Shown here in pieces: positions 8,871 through 18,804 of a DNA stretch of 25,870 bases (its first letter is position 1; each line of letters begins with the position of its first letter). The notes under the pieces are model-generated. The model was not told the DNA's origin. It saw only the letters and a program-made list of their open reading frames with translations, and searched no databases. Made by a program: the position numbers and the translations under genes. This stretch comes from a virus, in IMG/VR virus record IMGVR_UViG_3300047359_000210, positions 1 through 25,870 of that record, one strand, 5' to 3'.

Positions 8871-9564
8871 TACGGATAGCAAAATCAATAGCAGATTGAT
8901 ATGTAGTAGCGTCTTTGTTTAGCATATATTGAAACTGACTCTTATGAGTATCGTCCAACTGAGCGTAACAAGCAGCGATACGTTTTGCTGAGAAGTTATC
9001 AAGATTTTGTTCGGATCCATCACCAAATTTAATCTTTGCAAATGATGCTTCACCTTGAGGATTGAGTTCACTGGTTGCTACATCTAATGCAACTTGAATC
9101 ACGTCTTGATTTTCCATAATGTTATCACCTTTTAATTCTACAGAGTTATTCATTTTAGAAAGTTTCTTGGTTTGTGAAGATGCTTTCTTTTTAAAGTCTT
9201 GAAGACGTGCTTTCATAAGAGTGTCCATCTCTTTCGTCTTAGACTGCATTTTTTTCTTAGCGTCATCACGCTTTTTCTGGACATCTTTTTGACGACCTAA
9301 CTTTTTCATTTGGCCGATTTGTTTCTGTGCCCTCTCAGTTTCGGTAGGAGCAGCTTCAGAAATAGGATTGATTTCTAGTTCTTCTTTCATTTTTCTACGA
9401 TTAATACGGGACATTAAAGCACGGGCACCATTTGTACGCCCATCAACCTTATCTTGATTTGCTTTTTTATACTTACGATGCTGTTTAGGATTAACAAATA
9501 CAAAAGCAGGTGGTAAAGATAAATTACCCCCGTCTCCTGCTACCATTTCTGAGATGTTTTTCAT
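8863..9564 (-). CDS. Basic, helical protein of unknown function, 233 residues
   Basis: The start is the ATG at 9564, which overlaps the upstream stop as ATGA. Three parts are visible: an N-terminal segment (MVAGDGGNLSLPPAFVFVNPKQHRK), a central very Lys/Arg/Gln-rich predicted coiled coil (about residues 35-150), and a C-terminal compact acidic domain (about 150-233) beginning at MENQDVIQVALDV. An in-frame ATG at 9117 before that domain has its own AAAAGGTGA eight bases upstream, so a separate 84-residue product is possible. The layout is reminiscent of head-core or scaffold proteins, but I do not recognise the family. It lies in the late block. Confidence 0.75.
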   Translation of the reverse strand: MKNISEMVAGDGGNLSLPPAFVFVNPKQHRKYKKANQDKVDGRTNGARALMSRINRRKMKEELEINPISEAAPTETERAQKQIGQMKKLGRQKDVQKKRDDAKKKMQSKTKEMDTLMKARLQDFKKKASSQTKKLSKMNNSVELKGDNIMENQDVIQVALDVATSELNPQGEASFAKIKFGDGSEQNLDNFSAKRIAACYAQLDDTHKSQFQYMLNKDATTYQSAIDFAIRNV

Positions 9565-9917
9565 ATCAGATTCAGTTCCTTTAAACAATATGTATCTATG
9601 TCATTATTTAGTGATGGGGGAAGTCTATCTAAAAATAAAAGGAACGATTTTAATACACTCCAATATTCTTTTTCAATTTTAAAAAGCAACAACGGAGTTG
9701 CTGCTTCCCCAAAGATATTATACAAACAAATGATATGGTTTAATATCAAATGTTTTTTAAACTCCTTCGTAGTTTGGTATCTACGAAGGAGTCTTTTAAT
9801 GTATTTAAATTTTTTAATATCCTCCTCAAAATCAGCATATGTAACTGACTGAGGATTATCATAATTTTTAATTGCAAAAAGTACCCAATTATCTTGGGTC
9901 AACTCATCAAATTTCAT
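9561..9917 (-). CDS. Conserved-looking helical phage protein, 118 residues
   Basis: This is an all-helical soluble protein with many Lys, Leu and aromatic residues: MKFDELTQDNWVLFAIKNYDNP at the start, IKRLLRRYQTTKEFKKHLILNHI in the middle, and an FGEAATPLLLFKIEKEYW segment. It resembles a small protein family common in T4-like phages of marine bacteria whose function is unknown to me. It follows the Ig-like structural protein by seven bases and overlaps the next gene as ATGA, so it is probably transcribed from the late promoter at 10585. Confidence 0.72.
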   Translation of the reverse strand: MKFDELTQDNWVLFAIKNYDNPQSVTYADFEEDIKKFKYIKRLLRRYQTTKEFKKHLILNHIICLYNIFGEAATPLLLFKIEKEYWSVLKSFLLFLDRLPPSLNNDIDTYCLKELNLI

Positions 9918-9924
9918 TTAATCA

Positions 9925-10551
9925 TCAATTGAATGTGAGTGTGGCAGCATCAGAAGTAACGTCTCCAGACTGTCCTGTTGTAGAAAGAACAACACGATAC
10001 TGATAGTTAGCCATTGATGGGTGAGTTCCAGTAGCAGTTAGTTCCTGACCAGAGAATCCGCTACCCTGATAAAGATATGTTCCACCAAATCCAGTTGGTT
10101 GACCACTACTAATGTTGGTAAAGTTACTGCCACCATTGCTAGATGCCTGCCATTGAGCACTGATAGACCCACCAGTAGCACCTTCAATAGAAGCTGATAC
10201 TGCGAAAGTTACAGGTGCTCCAGTATTGACTGCTTGAGATCCAGGTTGTGTTGAGATAACAACGGTGCGATCTGCTGCTACAGCATCATCTGATTGTGAC
10301 TCAGAAGAATTCGCTTCTGCATCAGCAAGTGTTACCAACATCTCTGCTTTGTGGCGTGTAGCGCCAGAGCTATCAGTAAATGTATAGTATGACCACCAAC
10401 CAGGAGCGTTCAATCCTCGTGCTTTATTTTCTGCAAGTGCTGCTTCCGTTTCATCAACGAAAATTGTTTGCTTTGCCTGACTTGATGCAGCGATGCCTCT
10501 ACCAGCTTTGGTTTTGTTTGCATTGCTGTCAGTTTTTCCGTATAGAGACAT
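9925..10551 (-). CDS. Virion structural protein with an Ig-like domain
   Basis: The protein is 208 residues. The N-terminal 80 residues (MSLYGKTDSNANKTKAGRG, then GWWSYYTFTDSSGATRHKAEMLVTL) resemble a segment found in cyanophage structural proteins. The C-terminal part, about 92-208, is an Ig-like beta-sandwich: a Gly/Ser/Thr-rich sequence with the QPGSQAVNTGAPVTF opening, the W in SAQWQAS, and the YQYRVVLS...SDAATLTF ending. Such domains decorate phage heads or tails and may bind host surface sugars. The start ATG has GGAG at a good distance, and a perfect TATAAATA late promoter lies about 35 bases upstream, which supports a virion role. Confidence 0.82.
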   Translation of the reverse strand: MSLYGKTDSNANKTKAGRGIAASSQAKQTIFVDETEAALAENKARGLNAPGWWSYYTFTDSSGATRHKAEMLVTLADAEANSSESQSDDAVAADRTVVISTQPGSQAVNTGAPVTFAVSASIEGATGGSISAQWQASSNGGSNFTNISSGQPTGFGGTYLYQGSGFSGQELTATGTHPSMANYQYRVVLSTTGQSGDVTSDAATLTFN

Positions 10552-10858: not shown

Positions 10859-10982
10859 TAACACTCATCTTCTGACCGTTATCATCCTTAATCTGTGGCA
10901 TTACTTCCACAGTTTTTTTCTTGGACTTACGTTCTTTCTCCTTACTCCCACACTCCTCACGAAGTAGTTTAAAATTTTTCAT
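10854..10982 (-). CDS. Tiny lysine-rich protein with MKNFK-type N-terminus, 42 residues
   Basis: This short gene starts with an ATG at 10982 that overlaps the TGA of the 188-residue gene as ATGA, and ends TAA at 10854. About a quarter of the residues are Lys. The first ten, MKNFKLLREE, closely match the first ten of the 70-residue protein encoded just upstream (MKNFKQLREQ). They also resemble the capsid-targeting peptide at the start of T4 internal head proteins (MKTYQEFIAE). A packaged internal protein that neutralises DNA charge is a reasonable inference. The tight overlap supports that it is real. Confidence 0.7.
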   Translation of the reverse strand: MKNFKLLREECGSKEKERKSKKKTVEVMPQIKDDNGQKMSVK

Positions 10983-11545
10983 TTTTTCTTACTCATTCCA
11001 ATGATCTTACTAACTTTCTTACGACGTGCTAGAAGATACTTATCTGACTTATCGTGATCGCCATCGTTATCAATGTCCTTGTCTTCCTTGCCTACAGGAT
11101 CAAGTTTCTTTTCTTTAATCTCTTCACCAGTGGGTTCAAACCCTGCCTTGACACAGTTGTTAACTTCCTTACCGCCTTTCTTCTTGGTTCCCTGCTTCTT
11201 ATATCCTTTCCAGCAAGAGGTGTTACCGTTGTCATCAACACCGTCCATCTTGACTTTCTCAATGATGATTACTTCACCATCAACTTCAATCTCTTCACGC
11301 TCAAGAACGATTTCTTCTGCAACCGACTTCTCTTTCTTATCAATCTTCTTTTTCTTCTTGGTGATGTCATCTACTTCAGCACCATGTGACTGAGGATCCA
11401 TACCCTCAAATGCTTCAGGAGTATATTCAGGGATATGACTACCCTGGAAACAATCACCGTCCATCCAATTCGTATACATCTCCATCAAAGATGCAGAATA
11501 TGCATCATTATGTGCAACTTTGTTAACAGGTCTCTGCTTATCCAT
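10979..11545 (-). CDS. Lys/Asp-rich head-type protein of unknown function, 188 residues
   Basis: The protein has an N-terminal aromatic segment (residues 1-55), a Lys-rich run (ITKKKKKIDKKEK), a beta-like acidic segment (EREEIEVDGEVIIIEKVKM), a CWKGYKK..GTKKKGGKEVNNC segment with paired cysteines, and a C-terminal DKDIDNDGDHDKSDKYLL motif that resembles an EF-hand calcium loop (D-x-D-x-DGD). Segments like the last two recur, as I recall, in cyanophage head-associated proteins, but I cannot verify that here. A perfect late promoter box lies 29 bases upstream of its ATG. A head-core or packaged role is inferred; the function is unknown. Confidence 0.72.
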   Translation of the reverse strand: MDKQRPVNKVAHNDAYSASLMEMYTNWMDGDCFQGSHIPEYTPEAFEGMDPQSHGAEVDDITKKKKKIDKKEKSVAEEIVLEREEIEVDGEVIIIEKVKMDGVDDNGNTSCWKGYKKQGTKKKGGKEVNNCVKAGFEPTGEEIKEKKLDPVGKEDKDIDNDGDHDKSDKYLLARRKKVSKIIGMSKKK

Positions 11546-11565: not shown

Positions 11566-11778
11566 TTATGGTTTATTTATAGTGCGAATATCCTTCACCC
11601 ACTCCCGAAACATTCTCCCATCTTCAGTCACGACAATGGCATAGTTGACACCAGTGCGATGAACTGTTCCTTTATCTCCAGTTCTAGCAGACATAACAAT
11701 ATCACCCTCAGAAATCACATCATTCTGACGATGTGCCTGACGGAGTGCTTGTTCTCTAAGTTGCTTAAAGTTTTTCAT
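11566..11778 (-). CDS. Small protein with MKNFK-type N-terminus and SH3/KOW-like fold, 70 residues
   Basis: The first ten residues, MKNFKQLREQ, match those of the 42-residue protein downstream and look like a T4 capsid-targeting peptide. The rest (about 23-66) has the beta pattern of a small SH3- or KOW-like barrel: ISEGDIVMSARTGDKGTVHRTG, then YAIVVTEDGRMFREWVKDI. Such barrels bind nucleic acid or protein. The ATG at 11778 overlaps the stop of the nucleotidylyltransferase gene as ATGA, tying it to that module. A packaged role is inferred, not shown. Confidence 0.7.
   Translation of the reverse strand: MKNFKQLREQALRQAHRQNDVISEGDIVMSARTGDKGTVHRTGVNYAIVVTEDGRMFREWVKDIRTINKP
11574..11581 (-). 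promoter_or_regulatory. T4-type late promoter box
   Basis: A perfect TATAAATA on the minus strand lies about 29 bases before the ATG of the 188-residue Lys/Asp-rich protein and inside the last codons of the 70-residue gene. It matches the box at 10585-10592. Confidence 0.65.
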
Positions 11779-12338
11779 TTAAAATTAGCGGGCAAATTTG
11801 CCTGTATCTCTTGCATAAGAGCACGGCAATCATTATCATTCAGTGCTCTGGGTATACCAGAACGAAAAGTTTTAAAGTCACCAGCAAATGCTGCGCGTCT
11901 CATTTTTGTTCCTGAAATAGCGAAGGTATCGCCATCAGCATCTCTACTTCCAGAAGATTGAATATCAATTTTTCTGAATGAGAAATCCTTTCCGTTATAT
12001 TTATGGAGGAACTGCATGGCGCTCACTCTATCAGAACCCACAAGGAATACTACCTCATTATACCCTGCTAGCATAAGGTCTTGCAAGATAGCGACAGGTT
12101 GTTTGGGTCCAGAATGAATCTTTCCTCTATGTTCTGGAAACATTTTTTCCATATAGAAAAGTTTTCTGTCTGGTGGTAATGGATTGCTACCTTTCTTGTC
12201 TACAGTTTGTGAAATATAAATGCGATAGTCATGAGAACCTGCTGCTCTTTTTACACCAGCAAAGTTTTCTTTATGACCTGTAGTAGGTGGTTGAAACCTA
12301 CCAAAAGTAAAGTAGCAAGTATTACAATTTAACGCCAT
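11775..12338 (-). CDS. Nucleotidylyltransferase (HxGH superfamily)
   Basis: The protein is 187 residues. The nucleotide-binding signature GRFQPPTTGH lies at residues 13-22 and the second signature ISGTKMR at 141-147; between them is a Rossmann-like alternation including VVFLVGSDR. Both motifs are diagnostic of the cytidylyltransferase/NMN-adenylyltransferase superfamily, which joins a nucleotide to a phosphorylated substrate with release of pyrophosphate. The substrate cannot be read from sequence; NMN (NAD synthesis) is one option since phages are known to carry NadM/NadR-like enzymes. It overlaps the KxDG-protein gene by ten bases, and the shared late control suggests a joint role. Confidence 0.85.
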   Translation of the reverse strand: MALNCNTCYFTFGRFQPPTTGHKENFAGVKRAAGSHDYRIYISQTVDKKGSNPLPPDRKLFYMEKMFPEHRGKIHSGPKQPVAILQDLMLAGYNEVVFLVGSDRVSAMQFLHKYNGKDFSFRKIDIQSSGSRDADGDTFAISGTKMRRAAFAGDFKTFRSGIPRALNDNDCRALMQEIQANLPANFK

Positions 12339-13522
12339 TGCTTCTGTAGAGTGAAGTTATTGTATGCAAACTCCATACGGTTGACAAACTTAATCATATC
12401 ACCATCTTTATGAAGGACATATCCTTCAGGAGTTGTGACCTTATATCCTTTCTCTGTCTGGACATAGGTCCGGAACTCTTCCAGGTGGTCAAGCTTATCT
12501 ATAACCATTTGCTTCACTGTCTGTAATTCTTTATACAAAGAAAGCATTGATTTAAACTTGTATACATTATCTACAACATAGTTCTGACTGTTATATACAA
12601 GATTTCTTTTTGCTGTTAGGTTTGCAACTGTCTTAATTTTTGCAAGTTCTTTCTCCATCTTATCGCCATAGAAATTAAGCATGTCATACATTGCTTCATC
12701 TACATTTCCAATACCACGAGCATTCTTAATTTCATTGTTAAAGAACTGTTTTAGATAAGATGCAATATGAAACTTCTTATCTCCAGTAGTACCAGTAAGA
12801 ACTACCAGTTCATCTAAGAAATCTCCACAGATCTGACACATGCGTTCAATCTTAGTAATATAACTATCAAATTTTTTCATCTCAGTTGAAGTGAATCCAA
12901 CTTTATTCATGGGAGTATCATTTTTTATGACTAACGCATCAGTAGATCCATTAACATCAGCTCCAGCAAGTGCTTGCATAGATTGAAAGTCATCACCTTT
13001 GTAGTGTGTATGAAATACTACTCCAATTTTTGACCTACCTGCTGCCTGTCCTATAGGATGATCTACGGGAATGCCATACGTAATAGTATTAGGTCTAAAT
13101 GTATACAGTTTTTCGCCATTAATAGTTTCAGTTTTTACTGTTGAGTCAGTAAACATTAAATCTCCCTGCACTATCCCCTTTATACCTAAGGCAGCAAAAT
13201 ATTTCAAAGAGAATTTTAATTTCTCTGCTAAATCTCCTTCATAATACATGTCAACATCAACATCCGTATAGCAAATCTTTGGTGTTTTGGCAAATACTGA
13301 TTTAGTTCCAACAAAAAACATCCCACTATTAGGATCAGTACCACAAATAATAGACGGAGCACCATCCCATTTGGTTTGCATAAAACCACCACTCTCTTCT
13401 TGACCTAACATCTTGCGAAGTTCTTTAAGGAAAGACACAGCAGCTTTACAACCCTCAACTCCATAGTTAAGCATCTCATCTTCCAGATGTTCTAGATGTT
13501 TTAGTTGTTTAATATTTGCCAT
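12329..13522 (-). CDS. Predicted KxDG covalent nucleotidyltransferase (ligase-like), 397 residues
   Basis: The family is, as far as I recall, a phage domain of unknown function, but ligase/capping-enzyme motifs are visible in order: motif I KWDG at 51-54 (Lys51 would carry AMP or GMP), a VGTKSVF segment in the motif Ia position, GIVQGDLMF at about 116-124 in the motif III position (Asp rather than Glu), motif IV EGYV at 366-369 and motif V MIKFVNR with Lys378. A large helical insertion (about 210-345) separates III from IV. No OB-fold is evident after motif V. It starts one base into the stop of the 383-residue gene (TAATG). Enzyme class is inferred; the substrate is unknown. Confidence 0.72.
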   Translation of the reverse strand: MANIKQLKHLEHLEDEMLNYGVEGCKAAVSFLKELRKMLGQEESGGFMQTKWDGAPSIICGTDPNSGMFFVGTKSVFAKTPKICYTDVDVDMYYEGDLAEKLKFSLKYFAALGIKGIVQGDLMFTDSTVKTETINGEKLYTFRPNTITYGIPVDHPIGQAAGRSKIGVVFHTHYKGDDFQSMQALAGADVNGSTDALVIKNDTPMNKVGFTSTEMKKFDSYITKIERMCQICGDFLDELVVLTGTTGDKKFHIASYLKQFFNNEIKNARGIGNVDEAMYDMLNFYGDKMEKELAKIKTVANLTAKRNLVYNSQNYVVDNVYKFKSMLSLYKELQTVKQMVIDKLDHLEEFRTYVQTEKGYKVTTPEGYVLHKDGDMIKFVNRMEFAYNNFTLQKQWR

Positions 13523-14673
13523 TAGTCGTTAAATACCGTCTCAATACTTTCACCCTTCATCTTATATCCCGACTGTAACTTATCTGGATATACACGATCT
13601 GGATCTGCAGCAGATCCTTTATCAGAAGTGTTTCTAATATTAAATGACATATCTAAGAGAGGTGTTTTTAAATTAATGTTTACTCTCTTTGCACCACCAG
13701 TTTCACCACCATATGATACTGATACATTACTAGCAGTAGATGCTTTATTTAAAAATGCCTCATCAATTTCTAAATGTTTTATCTTACCTTTGTTTAGATG
13801 GACATAATGAAATCCATACCCCAATGATCCCTTAATAAGTTCTTTTAGTAATCCCCTATCATATGTCGGAGAAGAATCAAGTACCTTAAAAGATCTATTG
13901 CCTGATTGATACTCATTAAAAGTTTGACATAACAATTGCTCATTCAATCCAAACGTTTTCATTAAAGCTTTTCCAGCAACAGTTTCAATTTTAGATGCCT
14001 TTACTTGATCAACTGGGAAAACCTCTTTCTTTAATCCAAGATTAGATAAGTTCGTAGTTCCACTCATCTTCAGTGAAAGATAATACTTATGTAATGGTTT
14101 TCCTTTACATTTAGATTCTAATGTTAAGTCAGTAACTGTTGCACCAATATTATATCCCGTTGATGGTGAAGCATTTCCAATTTGCCAATGTCCATTGACA
14201 ATCTTCATAGGTCTAGGTTTATTCTCCGCACCTTCTGCGATTACTCTCACCGCAATACAATCCTCAAGGTGGTAATGTTTTACAAGACCGTAAATAAAAT
14301 CTTTATATTTGTTGTTTGCTAAGTCATCCGGATTTTCAATCCAGTCATTGATACCTGATTCTAATTGCCCTTCAAATAAATTACCTCTATTACCTGTACC
14401 ACGATTACCTCTACTACCATCACCAAAGTCAAAATTGAGAGAAGTTAGTTTTAGTTTTCTTTTTAGTTCTGCTTTAGTAAATTCTGTTTGCAATGCTCTA
14501 GCAATTTTTACTGCTTTTTTATTAGTCGGATTAAAAGCAATAGGGTTTTCCATGCCATATGTATTGACAAGATAATTCCACAACCTCAATGCTTCTGCAG
14601 CTGCAGCATTATCCATATGCTTTACAGCAGAACCTGCATCTGAGAAAGTAGATGGTATAAGATTGTATGCCAT
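13522..14673 (-). CDS. Unknown protein of the late nucleotidyltransferase module, 383 residues
   Basis: I cannot name the family. The N-terminal ~75 residues are helical and basic, and a Gly/Asn/Arg-rich stretch (about 80-98) follows. A mixed alpha/beta core then begins with NLFEGQLESGINDW and contains VTDLTLESKCKG followed by KYYLSLKMSGTTNLSN. An acidic residue on a helix followed by D...ExK and a strand with xLSLK resembles the PD-(D/E)XK nuclease layout, so a nuclease fold is possible but unproven. Its ribosome-binding site GGGAGG, six bases before the ATG, is the 3' arm of the hairpin at 14678-14709, so expression is likely structure-controlled. Confidence 0.72.
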   Translation of the reverse strand: MAYNLIPSTFSDAGSAVKHMDNAAAAEALRLWNYLVNTYGMENPIAFNPTNKKAVKIARALQTEFTKAELKRKLKLTSLNFDFGDGSRGNRGTGNRGNLFEGQLESGINDWIENPDDLANNKYKDFIYGLVKHYHLEDCIAVRVIAEGAENKPRPMKIVNGHWQIGNASPSTGYNIGATVTDLTLESKCKGKPLHKYYLSLKMSGTTNLSNLGLKKEVFPVDQVKASKIETVAGKALMKTFGLNEQLLCQTFNEYQSGNRSFKVLDSSPTYDRGLLKELIKGSLGYGFHYVHLNKGKIKHLEIDEAFLNKASTASNVSVSYGGETGGAKRVNINLKTPLLDMSFNIRNTSDKGSAADPDRVYPDKLQSGYKMKGESIETVFND

Positions 14674-14677
14674 AAAA

Positions 14678-14709
14678 AACCTCCCGTCTAACTATTTAGA
14701 TGGGAGGTT
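14678..14709 (-). terminator. Hairpin: terminator and ribosome-binding-site sequestering element
   Basis: On the minus strand AACCTCCC pairs with GGGAGGTT, then after one A-C mismatch TCTAA pairs with TTAGA around the loop ATAG. A run of T follows and directly abuts the ATG at 14673. It would act as an intrinsic terminator for the upstream genes and would hide the GGGAGG of the 383-residue gene. The stop codon of the 66-residue gene lies in the loop. Confidence 0.8.
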
Positions 14710-14892
14710 CTTAAGATAATCTTTTTCACTTTGATAAGGATGTGTTTGCCCAGACCATATTTTATATCCTTCTTGGAGTTCTGGCAATAACCACTGGTCC
14801 ACCCGAACACATTGATCCCAATTAGCAGGGTGAGAACAACTCACAACCACCACAGTAAAGAATGCTTTCAGGTGAATCCAGAAGGTAAGCAT
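14692..14892 (-). CDS. Small predicted lipoprotein, 66 residues
   Basis: The first 18 residues are a hydrophobic signal-like segment (FWIHLKAFFTVVVVS) ending in VVSC, which fits the lipobox [LVI][ASTVI][GAS]C with Cys19 as the lipidated residue. The mature part is short, polar and rich in Trp, Gln and Tyr. Phage outer spanins and some superinfection-exclusion proteins have this form, but no inner-spanin partner is recognised here. The start ATG lies two bases after the stop of the 71-residue gene. The stop falls in the loop of the terminator hairpin. Confidence 0.65.
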   Translation of the reverse strand: MLTFWIHLKAFFTVVVVSCSHPANWDQCVRVDQWLLPELQEGYKIWSGQTHPYQSEKDYLKNLPSK

Positions 14893-15841: not shown

Positions 15842-17419
15842 TTAGGAGTAAATATTTTCTTTTAAAAATTCGTAGGAGGTTGGAAGTTTAAGAACAAATC
15901 CTTCTATCATTTTAGCACGATTTTTAAAATCTTGGTATAATTTATCGGTATCTTTTCCGAAAGTACTCTTTGATCCTGATTCTAATACACCATAAAGATA
16001 ATTTGCATATGGAACATGTCCCATACCCGCCATGATATATGCAATACCATTTTTTTCAGGATCCCATCTGTGTGCTAGAGAGTGAAATTGATGTATGTTT
16101 TCATACCAAACTGTTGATCCATTTTCATATGAGAAATGCAGTTTATTCTCAGTAAACAATCTTGGATCAGAAAGTTTAAACCAATCTTTAATTTCAGTTT
16201 GGTATTTCCAATATGGAGTATCAGATCTTTGGGAAAGTTTGTAGTGAAGAGAAACAAAATACATGTATCCAGTCACAACTAACTGACATGCATAGTTGTA
16301 AGAATCTCTATCAAAACCAGTAATATTATAGTTACGTCTATCAAGAATTTCAACTAGTTGTTGAATCATTTCATGAGTAGAAACAAGTCCTGTAGATTCT
16401 AATGGTTCAATAAAACCAAAAGCAAGACCAACTCCCACTACATTCTTAACCCAACCTCTTTCTCTTACACCATGTCGGATATTGATCTTACGAATTTCAA
16501 TATCTTCATTACCTACATGTTGTTTGAACTCTTTTTCTGCATCATCATCACTGATAAAATCACTAGAGTAAACATATCCAGATCCCATGCGATTCCACAG
16601 AGGAATATTCCACGACCATCCACTGTTTAATGCTGTGCAATTAGTAACATTACGAATCTCTTTAGTTTTATCTTTATATGGTAGATGAGTTGCAATAGCT
16701 CTATCATTATCCAACCATGGTTTAAAAGAAATGAACTCTGATCCCATTTCTTTTTCCAAAAGTAAGGATTTAAATCCTGTACAATCAACATAAAGATCTG
16801 CAGAGTACTCAGTTCCAGAATCACCTACTAAAGAAGTAATGAATCCGTCTTCATCTTTTTTTACAGCAACAACATCGTCAATGTAATGTTTTGCTTTCTT
16901 ACAAAAGCGGTTTTTAAGAAACTTTCCAAAAAGACTAGCATCAAAATGATATGCTGTTTCTCCTTTAAAAGAAAATGATAATGAATTATCAGAATTGGTA
17001 GTCATCCTATTATGTTTTGCTAACCAATAAACATGGTTCGTAAACTCACAAAAAGAGTCTGGTTCTAAGTCATATTTTGCACGGACAACAGACCAAGCAC
17101 CGAATGATTCTTCTGTATGAGTTCCTCCAAATGGATACTCAAACACTTCACCATTACCATCCCTAAAGTTAGTAAACCTAATTGAAGTTTTATAAGTGGC
17201 ATTGCAATGTGGCATCCACTCTTTGTCTTCAATACCAAGAATTTGAGTCAGATAATCGTTAAATTTGGTAATGGTAGATTCCCCTACCCCAACTGGATTA
17301 GAATTCTTCCCCTCAAGAACAGATATTTTAATATCTTTACCAAATTTTTTACACAAAGCAGCAGCAGTCATCCAACCAGAAGATCCGCCACCGACAACCA
17401 TAATACTTTTAATCTTCAT
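15842..17419 (-). CDS. Flavin-dependent tryptophan-halogenase family protein
   Basis: From the ATG at 17419 (ATGA overlap with the gp41 stop) the protein has 525 residues, normal for the family. The FAD-binding GGGSSGW lies at residues 10-16 and GVGEST at 44-49. Lys77 (ATYKTSIRF) matches the catalytic Lys of PrnA. The diagnostic WxWxIP is present at 268-273 and a FIEPLEST segment supplies the catalytic Glu. The enzyme class uses FADH2, O2 and halide to make HOCl, directed by Lys onto an indole or phenol. The substrate in infected cyanobacteria is unknown. No flavin reductase is encoded nearby, but a ferredoxin is. A promoter-like sequence lies at 17530-17558. Confidence 0.93.
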   Translation of the reverse strand: MKIKSIMVVGGGSSGWMTAAALCKKFGKDIKISVLEGKNSNPVGVGESTITKFNDYLTQILGIEDKEWMPHCNATYKTSIRFTNFRDGNGEVFEYPFGGTHTEESFGAWSVVRAKYDLEPDSFCEFTNHVYWLAKHNRMTTNSDNSLSFSFKGETAYHFDASLFGKFLKNRFCKKAKHYIDDVVAVKKDEDGFITSLVGDSGTEYSADLYVDCTGFKSLLLEKEMGSEFISFKPWLDNDRAIATHLPYKDKTKEIRNVTNCTALNSGWSWNIPLWNRMGSGYVYSSDFISDDDAEKEFKQHVGNEDIEIRKINIRHGVRERGWVKNVVGVGLAFGFIEPLESTGLVSTHEMIQQLVEILDRRNYNITGFDRDSYNYACQLVVTGYMYFVSLHYKLSQRSDTPYWKYQTEIKDWFKLSDPRLFTENKLHFSYENGSTVWYENIHQFHSLAHRWDPEKNGIAYIMAGMGHVPYANYLYGVLESGSKSTFGKDTDKLYQDFKNRAKMIEGFVLKLPTSYEFLKENIYS

Positions 17420-18804
17420 ACATTCCACTCAGCAAATTTAGATAGTCGGTTTTGTGTTTGTGTAAATTGCGAGAACTCTTCACCAGGGTCCTCTTGATTG
17501 ATGTTGATGTCTGAAGCATCCTCCGCTACATCATACAGCCTCATCTTGGATCTGTCAATTCCCACCATGAATTTTCTTGAGGCAGCAGTTTCGTTGTATC
17601 TGTTCTTAAGTTGTTTGACCATGATGCGACCCTGTTGTTCAAGTTCATCAGTACTGATGAGAGCAAACATAAAATCAGCAGTGGCAGGCAAACCAAAAGA
17701 CTCAGAAGTATCGGTAAGGTCAGGGTCAGAATTGCCGTAACCGCTACGAGTAGTTTGAGTAGCTGTGACAATAGGAACATTACATTCCACAGCAAGACCC
17801 CGAAGCTCCTCAGCAATCGCCTTGACATACGTGTAAGAATTGACAATAGCACCTTTATACCTCGCTGATGCACAGATGTTCAGATAATCAATATAGATTA
17901 TATCTGGTTTGAAATCTCTCTTGAGAGATAGATCACTTATAAGTGATTTGAAGTGACCCGCATGTGCTGATGCTGTGGGATACTCTTTGATAATAAGTTT
18001 GCCTCTAGTCTTCCTAGAGATCTCTTGAACTTTAGAATTGAAGATAACTTCAGGTAGTTCAGCAATATCTTTGATAGAAACATTTAAAAGATTTGCGTCA
18101 ATTCGTTCAGCAATTTTCTCCTCTGCCATTTCACATGTAATGTAGAGTACGTTCCTGCCCTGAGTGAGCGCGGCACCAGCGCAATGGCACATGAATAGAG
18201 ATTTCCCGACACCTGTACCAGCAAGAGCGACACTGAGAGTCTTGTTAGAGATACCACCTTTCGTGATGTAGTTAAACTTTTCCAGATCAAAGGGAACCTT
18301 TTCTTCTTTGCGGTGGTAGAAATCATAACGGTCTTTTGCTTGTTCAATGTAGTCGTGTCCTATGTGTTCGTCAAACGATACTGCGAGAGCCTCTTGTAAG
18401 ATACCTGGGATCGCATCCTTTGATATTTTTTTATCGCCTCCGTCTGCGATTTTGATAGAGGACATAAGGGCGAGATAGATTGCTCTGTCTTGACACCATT
18501 TTTCGGTTGCATCAAGGAGCCATTCGTAATCAACCCATTCATCTGTGAGTCCTCGTATCGCCTGTAACGTATCTTTAAACGATTCGTCAGTAAGATCGTT
18601 ACGATTCTGGACATTAATCGCCAAGACCTCTTGAGTAGGAACTTTATCGTACTTACCAGCGAAGTCCGAAATTTCCTCAAAGATAACTTTTTCATGATAC
18701 TCTTCAAAATAATCTGCTTTTAAGAAAGGAACTACCTTACGATAATACTCTTCAGTAAAGATGAGATTACGTAAGATAGTTTCTTGGATGCGCTCAGTTG
18801 CCAT
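17416..18804 (-). CDS. 41: Replicative DNA helicase, T4 gp41 type
   Basis: From the ATG at 18804 the protein has 462 residues, close to T4 gp41. An N-terminal helical domain (about 1-150) is followed by a DnaB/RecA-like ATPase core with Walker A GTGVGKS at 196-202, Walker B IIYIDYLN (Asp306) and an arginine-rich C-terminal segment ([20 protein letters not shown]). It unwinds DNA 5' to 3' as a hexamer and partners with primase gp61. A TTG start further upstream gives ten extra residues but looks like UvsX coding sequence. It overlaps uvsX by 11 bases. Confidence 0.95.
17530..17558 (-). promoter_or_regulatory. Sigma-70-like promoter upstream of the halogenase
   Basis: On the minus strand a perfect TTGACA (17558-17553), a 17-base spacer and TATGAT (17535-17530, one mismatch) lie in the 3' end of gene 41. 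A start near 17523 would give a leader of about 100 bases to the halogenase. The long leader lowers confidence. Confidence 0.4.

Follow-up and report, generated by a model that had tools for sequence, protein, structure and literature searches.

A putative late operon of T4-like cyanophages combining an RNA ligase-like DUF6267 protein, an NMNAT-like enzyme and a predicted restriction-like nuclease

The stretch of viral DNA analyzed here (record IMGVR_UViG_3300047359_000210, positions 1 to 25,870; 25.9 kb, hereafter, the window) comes from a T4-like cyanophage and carries a run of four overlapping genes that encode proteins of 383, 397, 187 and 70 residues. The 397-residue protein belongs to the family DUF6267, for which no function is on record in the libraries searched, and its predicted structure suggests a very remote kinship with RNA ligases; the next gene appears to encode a divergent NMNAT-like nucleotidylyltransferase (NTase). 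With moderate confidence, we read the run as an insulated operon, expressed late, whose nucleotidyl-transfer and nuclease enzymes are made for delivery with the phage DNA, where DUF6267 would act through a nucleotide attached to Lys51 and the NMNAT-like enzyme would supply the nucleotide or dinucleotide. A preliminary description, drawn from the letters of the DNA alone, had singled out the 397- and 187-residue proteins as a translationally coupled pair. Both open reading frames (ORFs) and a 10-nt overlap between them were indeed found, and the coupled run is longer than was claimed, extending from the 383- through the 397- and 187- to the 70-residue gene, with a 1-nt overlap at its first junction and a 4-nt overlap at its last. 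All the genes under study lie on the minus strand, and the features are as follows.

12329..13522, minus strand: 397-residue DUF6267 protein with a predicted RNA ligase-like fold and a helical insertion at about residues 212-347 (Pfam, AlphaFold2, VIA-align)
13370..13372, minus strand: Lys51 codon (motif I, KWDG), the residue proposed to bind the nucleotide covalently (Lys in 95/95 aligned relatives)
12425..12427, minus strand: Glu366 codon (motif IV, EGYV; Glu in 94/95, one gap)
12389..12391, minus strand: Lys378 codon (motif V, K-x-V-x-R; Lys in 94/95, one gap)
11775..12338, minus strand: 187-residue NMNAT/NadR-like HxGH nucleotidylyltransferase (NTase), T4-GC 190 of cyanophages (phrog_3041)
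11566..11778, minus strand: 70-residue small domain protein (phrog_4808, E 3.4e-35; phrog_395 positions 207-270)
13522..14673, minus strand: 383-residue protein, predicted PD-(D/E)XK-type nuclease of the HinP1I/MspI fold (model and invariant residues)
14675..14712, minus strand: terminator-like hairpin with a TCTAAATA box (RNA folding; its T run is followed by the start codon of the 383-residue gene, ATG)
14693-14700, minus strand: TCTAAATA, T4-late-promoter-like box inside the hairpin (sequence)

The fold of the DUF6267 family

The 397-residue protein is a full-length member of the Pfam family DUF6267 (PF19782, E 1.2e-122) and also matches phrog_455, whose 764 positions cover the NTase as well. 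In the named cyanophages, the two proteins correspond to clusters T4-GC 71 (DUF6267) and T4-GC 190 (NTase), and matches to DUF6267 were obtained in 466 of 50,697 phage records, nearly all of them cyanophages. A literature search recovered no paper naming DUF6267, nor the misspelt annotation that the NTase carries.

All the ligase- or capping-type motifs that the preliminary description had attributed to this protein are present, namely, K51-W-D-G, GIVQGDLM, E366-G-Y-V and K378, and only the acidic residue of motif III had to be reassigned, from D122 to D121. In the alignment of 95 sequences that underlies both the conservation analysis and the structural model, ten residues are unchanged in 95/95 relatives (K51, D53, G54, K74, Q119, D121, H171, T172, Y174 and K337), whereas E366-G367 and K378 are kept in 94/95, the remaining row being a truncated contig. 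Because of this invariance, the motifs do not seem to be a chance occurrence, and the complete conservation of K51-x-D53-G54 and D121 is not what a dead enzyme would be expected to show.

The AlphaFold2 model of the DUF6267 protein (pLDDT 94.4, pTM 0.89) contains strands at residues 46-51, with K51 at the end, 57-62, 367-372 and 375-380, with E366 and K378 at the last two, which is the placement of the corresponding residues in ligases; the large helical insertion consists of helices between residues 212 and 347. When VIA-align was run on the top 1000 chains retrieved by Foldseek, 26 of the top 27 rows were RNA or DNA ligases (Z 5.1-8.0, 156-188 residues aligned), led by the Naegleria RNA ligase NgrRnl (Z 8.0, 180 residues, 3.9 Å) and followed by the trypanosome RNA-editing ligase TbREL1 (7.7), T4 Rnl1 (7.6), T4 Rnl2 (6.8), and then, archaeal RNA ligases and DNA ligases; the sole non-ligase in these rows was Hsp70 (Z 5.8). 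Z values of this size may reflect a common arrangement, so the weight of the comparison lies in a single superfamily filling the list and in the aligned span, which runs from residue 6 to residue 392 and skips the helical insertion. The structural part of the original proposal, a ligase-type protein built around a large helical insertion, is borne out at the level of the model.

In the model, DUF6267 shares the core fold of the T4-type RNA ligases (Rnl1 and Rnl2) and the RNA-editing ligases, along with the order of motifs, I (KxDG), III, IIIa, IV (EG) and V (K). It differs from the T4-type enzymes in having Asp in place of Glu in motif III and in the large helical insertion, which lies between motifs IIIa and IV. 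A Pfam scan of the 95 family members detected DUF6267 in every one and RNA_lig_T4_1 in a single, weak case (1/95, E 0.017), and phmmer and profile searches of the PDB with DUF6267 returned only helical or chance matches.

The nucleotidylyltransferase partner

The 187-residue protein matches phrog_3041 (E 1.2e-68) and contains the segments GRFQPPTTGH and ISGTKMRR, which we take to be motifs of the HxGH and ISxTxxR types; their G, R, P, G, H and S, R columns are invariant in 54 sequences. At E<=0.01, the NadR/NMNAT models TIGR01526 and TIGR00482 match 39/54 and 35/54 members of this family, respectively, Pfam CTP_transf_like is detected in 48/54, and the best PDB profile match is the NMNAT MJ0541 (E 0.0034). 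The protein of the window itself scores below the curated cut-offs (TIGR01526, 17.2 vs 341.15 bits; PF01467, 14.8 vs 21). Judging by these motifs and profiles, it is a divergent HxGH, NMNAT-like enzyme, so that, as originally supposed, the adjacent genes would represent two different classes of nucleotidyl-transfer enzymes, one ligase-like by its model and the other an HxGH NTase by its sequence.

The NTase is homologous to the cytidylyltransferase/NMNAT of cyanophage virions (T4-GC 190; S-SM1, S-SCSM1 and S-CREM2). Compared with these relatives, the NTase in the clade of the window is short and lacks an N-terminal capsid tag, and the C-terminal domain, which many relatives carry as part of the NTase itself, is encoded by the separate 70-residue gene. 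The 70-residue protein corresponds to the C-terminal region of phrog_395 and begins with MKNFKQLREQ, a capsid-targeting-like sequence that is off the exact T4 register. In PHROGs and GenBank, this domain (11566-11778, minus strand, and its homologs) goes under the name "ribonucleotide reductase alpha subunit", apparently, an annotation error that has spread through databases.

DUF6267 and the NTase are closely linked. They form a single 592-residue protein in S-PM2 and are also fused at three other loci (L130, L136 and L200). Among the loci with sufficient flanks (at least 1.5 kb upstream for the counts of upstream genes given below, at least 3 kb downstream for those of the NTase), the NTase is fused to DUF6267 or lies within 3 kb downstream in 50/50 cases in the clade of the window and in 43/58 cases in other clades, where it is farther away in 3 and absent from the locus in 12. 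In 14 named genomes, DUF6267 was found in 10 and the NTase in 13, and all 10 genomes with DUF6267 have both, whereas three jumbo phages encode only the NTase, and neither gene is present in T4; by these counts, the NTase can exist without DUF6267, and the reverse was not seen in these genomes. The NTase is also present in 13/13 chosen contigs with DUF6267, which were picked mostly for length from loci already holding this gene. The distance between the two genes reaches about 98 kb in ACG-2014f, about 132 kb in S-SCSM1 (record coordinates) and about 15 kb in Vibrio phage 2.275; in four jumbo-phage genomes, no DUF6267 was detected within 6 kb on each side of the NTase, the gene about 15 kb off in Vibrio phage 2.275 being outside this range.

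The affinities of the NTase raise the alternative that this is a module of nicotinamide adenine dinucleotide (NAD) supply, in which the NMNAT-like enzyme, joined in relatives by P-loop kinases, restores NAD against an NAD-depleting defense or for phage metabolism, and DUF6267 plays an accessory part, as a modifier or regulator, and is not a nucleic acid enzyme. Besides the NadR/NMNAT profile matches and the similarity to MJ0541, this view draws on fusions of the NTase to AAA_33/zeta-like kinases, which recall the arrangement in NadR (L133:9174-11912, L164:7345-9180 and L194:9182-10462), on the regulation of NAD proposed for the NTase in passages of two proteomic studies (PMC9602691, PMC10665884), and on NAD restoration by phages as a counter to defense, as described in part of PMC12774641. 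Nevertheless, the window NTase falls far under the NMNAT equivalog cut-off, and the presence of a restriction enzyme-like partner, as well as the tie between a ligase-like fold and the NTase, would be left unexplained; we regard such a module as rather unlikely.

Further enzymes are encoded around this pair in phages of heterotrophs. In some of these, an adenylate kinase is located between DUF6267 and the NTase; it is identified by PF00406 (E 1.9e-37) at L155, where it carries the exact form of the capsid tag described below, and by resemblance at the other loci with adenylate kinase-like genes near DUF6267 or the NTase (L139, L149, L157, L162 and L178), and several of these genes are likewise exactly tagged. 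An AAA_33/zeta-toxin-like P-loop kinase also occurs between DUF6267 and the NTase in some heterotroph phages, and L199 encodes a HAD phosphatase with a capsid-targeting-like N-terminus whose nearest family is phrog_415, "polynucleotide kinase" (9433-10041). These additional kinases and the phosphatase fit either end healing or recycling of NAD and AMP. A Pol-beta-like motif noticed by eye at L133 was not confirmed by Pfam and was dropped.

The upstream position and its control element

No Pfam match and no PDB sequence match was found for the 383-residue protein encoded upstream of DUF6267. Its AlphaFold2 model, built from 25 sequences (pLDDT 85.2), was aligned by VIA-align to the restriction enzymes HinP1I (Z 10.0, 215 residues, 4.6 Å) and MspI (Z 8.9, 200 residues), and then, to the Hjc resolvase (5.5); Foldseek alone put MspI first (prob 0.98, E 5.8e-3). 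Four residues, E101, D182, S200 and K202, the last two forming S200-x-K202, are invariant in 25/25 members of the family, an arrangement that in the model resembles the D...SxK configuration with a helix Glu of HinP1I and MspI, with Ser at the position usually occupied by D/E in (D/E)xK; sequence similarity to either enzyme is undetectable. MspI and HinP1I likewise replace the D/E of the D/ExK motif. The passage of a review that concerns this point words it differently (PMC4081073). From the model and the invariant residues, the 383-residue protein is predicted to be a restriction enzyme-like nuclease of the HinP1I/MspI fold.

The gene at this position is exchangeable. Among 84 loci in the clade of the window, the upstream slot is filled by the family win383 in 53, by scsm90 in 25 and by dlp65 in 3, with an unrecognised gene in 3; outside this clade, 35/78 loci have a recognised family. 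The slot member of S-SCSM1 (ORF90) is labelled "virion protein". Profile comparison revealed no homology between the 383-residue family and the S-SCSM1/P-HM1-type slot family, and profile searches of the PDB with both were empty or gave chance matches; hence, although both keep D...SLK, we do not claim that they form one nuclease family. The proposed co-occurrence of the 383-, 397- and 187-residue genes accordingly holds in part, with a lasting link, including fusions, between the latter two, and a 383-residue gene that is not obligate.

The hairpin in front of the 383-residue gene (14675-14712; -20.1 kcal/mol, z -5.83) and the box inside it are retained across cyanophages regardless of which slot family follows. 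A late-like box precedes the slot gene in 50/62 cyanophage stretches, against 83/304 for other plus-strand ORFs, and a terminator-like hairpin does so in 38/62, against 1/304 for other ORFs; given that related sequences are not independent, Fisher values for these enrichments, and for that of the capsid tag, are only rough. By analogy with the TATAAATA rule of T4, which we assume to apply here, the TCTAAATA box would work as a late promoter. Late control, as originally proposed, is therefore supported by this conserved element directly 5' of the 383-residue gene and not by ATAAATA as a window-wide late signal: with 6 occurrences against 7.55 expected, this heptamer is not over-represented in the window, and it was dropped as stand-alone evidence. 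That a nuclease slot with exchangeable occupants follows a single conserved terminator/promoter suggests that host defense may have been the selective force.

Elsewhere in the window, ORFs and family scans indicate a DNA polymerase, UvsX, a gp41-type helicase, ribonucleotide reductase, transaldolase, an Hsp20-like protein and four tRNAs, several of these gene names being our presumptive assignments from sequence. A tryptophan halogenase (15842-17428, minus strand; PF04820, E 3.4e-104) is encoded within the phage replication region. Downstream of the run, a 188-residue protein (10979-11545, minus strand) contains DKDIDNDGDHDKSDKYL, a motif resembling a calcium loop, which several proteins encoded at these loci share.

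Capsid tags, virions and the role of the operon

The case for delivery with the DNA comes from relatives of the window proteins. In T4, where ipII and ipIII start with MKTYQEFIAEA, capsid targeting depends on residues 4 and 7, and processing on residues 8 and 10, according to the part of the T4 work that deals with these positions (PMC9026906), which give the exact IPIII register used here (F/Y4, F/Y/L7, I/L/V/M8, E10). Outside the clade of the window, this exact tag is present in 19/84 DUF6267 proteins and 7/53 NTases; it also occurs in 5/57 slot proteins and in 11/776 other ORFs, these controls including further tagged genes from the cluster itself; starts were set at the first ATG, and ORFs without ATG, running off the contig or repeating an N-terminus were discarded. 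A looser pattern ("strict"), which, like its variants, was devised after viewing the N-termini, matches 29/100 DUF6267 proteins and 22/73 NTases against 21/833 other ORFs. The DUF6267 protein of Stenotrophomonas phage DLP_6, for example, starts with MMKFTQFLAES. The T4 internal proteins IPI-III and Alt provide the precedent, with the same tag register and the idea of delivery in phages related to that of the window, and Alt is an injected enzyme, too; the enzyme classes of the T4 internal proteins differ, however, and the two enzymes of the window are untagged. As for the NTase, the respective proteomic studies report homologs detected by mass spectrometry in virions of S-SM1 (PMC3037559), S-SCSM1 (PMC9602691, which also cites such a detection for S-CBWM1) and S-CREM2 (PMC10665884). 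The virion association suggested in the preliminary description is, accordingly, upheld by published data for NTase homologs and falls short for DUF6267, which is untagged in the clade of the window and unlabelled in S-SCSM1.

If the operon works as we favor, its four overlapping genes, set apart by a terminator that contains a late-type promoter box, would yield a set of nucleic acid and nucleotide enzymes destined for the virion. DUF6267 would bind a nucleoside triphosphate or NAD, form a covalent Lys51-nucleoside monophosphate, and transfer the nucleotide to an acceptor, either an end or a group, positioned close to the helical insertion, while, beside it, the NMNAT-like enzyme would make or recycle an NAD-type dinucleotide; the upstream partner would be a restriction enzyme-like nuclease, one of several interchangeable families. 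DUF6267 and the NTase both bear the tag in many related phages, where cleavage by the prohead protease is predicted; they would be injected with the DNA and might take effect within minutes of infection, by repairing or modifying nucleic acid ends and by holding NAD and nucleotide pools against host defense. For the phage of the window itself, we infer the catalysis, the donor, the substrate and the packaging of DUF6267.

Several observations pull the other way. With respect to the fold, Foldseek alone gave no PDB match for DUF6267 at E<=0.001, and the VIA-align Z never exceeded 8; no sequence similarity to Rnl2 relatives is detectable, with hhalign of the 95-member DUF6267 profile against 12 T4 Rnl2 relatives yielding a probability of 0.2%, E 0.34 and the wrong register. 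Motif V is atypical, K-x-V-x-R, with V/I in the second position and R382 after it, and has no counterpart of the second Lys of the KxK in T4 Rnl2 (K225, K227); furthermore, the chain stops about 19 residues past K378, so that the usual C-terminal domain is missing. With respect to delivery, the 397- and 187-residue proteins of the window lack a capsid tag, as do all members counted in their clade (exact tag in 0/16 DUF6267 and 0/20 NTases), in S-SCSM1 the NTase is labelled as a virion protein but DUF6267 (SSCSM1_257) is not, T4-GC190 escaped detection in the proteome of S-PM2 (PMC3037559), and, in passages of PMC9602691 and PMC10665884, the authors of the proteomic studies themselves raise carry-over in the cesium chloride (CsCl) preparation.

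The divergent motif V and the missing C-terminal domain would suit a protein that keeps a ligase fold without catalysis, in a head-core or scaffold-like capacity, and the tag in relatives befits a head-core protein equally well. Such degeneration is hard to reconcile with the invariance of K51-x-D53-G54 and D121, and the near-complete invariance of E366 and K378, across 95 diverse relatives, and we consider it highly improbable. The absence of the canonical tag in the window, in turn, is in line with intracellular late enzymes that are never packaged and that process phage DNA or RNA ends while late replication or packaging is under way, the NTase in virions being carry-over of the kind its authors mention; in S-SCSM1, moreover, about 130 kb separates the NTase from DUF6267, which is surrounded by small genes and lacks a virion label. 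Given the enrichment of the tag on both enzymes in other lineages and the repeated detection of the NTase in separate phage proteomes, as reported in parts of the studies cited, this possibility appears no more probable than the NAD-supply module, that is, clearly on the unlikely side.

A more specific version of the delivered operon is more doubtful still: the heads of marine T4-like phages might carry an injected kit to cut and reseal nucleic acids, consisting of the exchangeable restriction enzyme-like nuclease, DUF6267 as a new ligase family with NAD as its adenylyl donor, and a fused or adjacent NMNAT turning the released nicotinamide mononucleotide back into NAD, to which heterotroph phages would add adenylate kinase, a polynucleotide/zeta-type kinase and the HAD phosphatase, and which would repair or edit nucleic acid ends in the first minutes. 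The system is less of a novelty than the preliminary description supposed, in that DUF6267 was already a Pfam family and the NTase a known core virion protein of cyanophages, with NAD-related ideas already in print, although DUF6267 had no function on record. As far as our searches go, the ligase-like fold of DUF6267 is new; on general literature searches, so are the restriction-like fold of its neighbor, the tagging of DUF6267 and the NTase in relatives, and the terminator/late-box element that cyanophages conserve.

If the favored reading of a delivered operon is correct, the union of ligase-like, NAD-type and restriction-like enzymes in one late operon, with capsid tags in relatives, would open to direct testing the question of what marine T4-like phages deliver into the host in addition to DNA, and what it is aimed at. 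The partner of DUF6267 in this arrangement is a cyanophage core gene whose product is found in virions.

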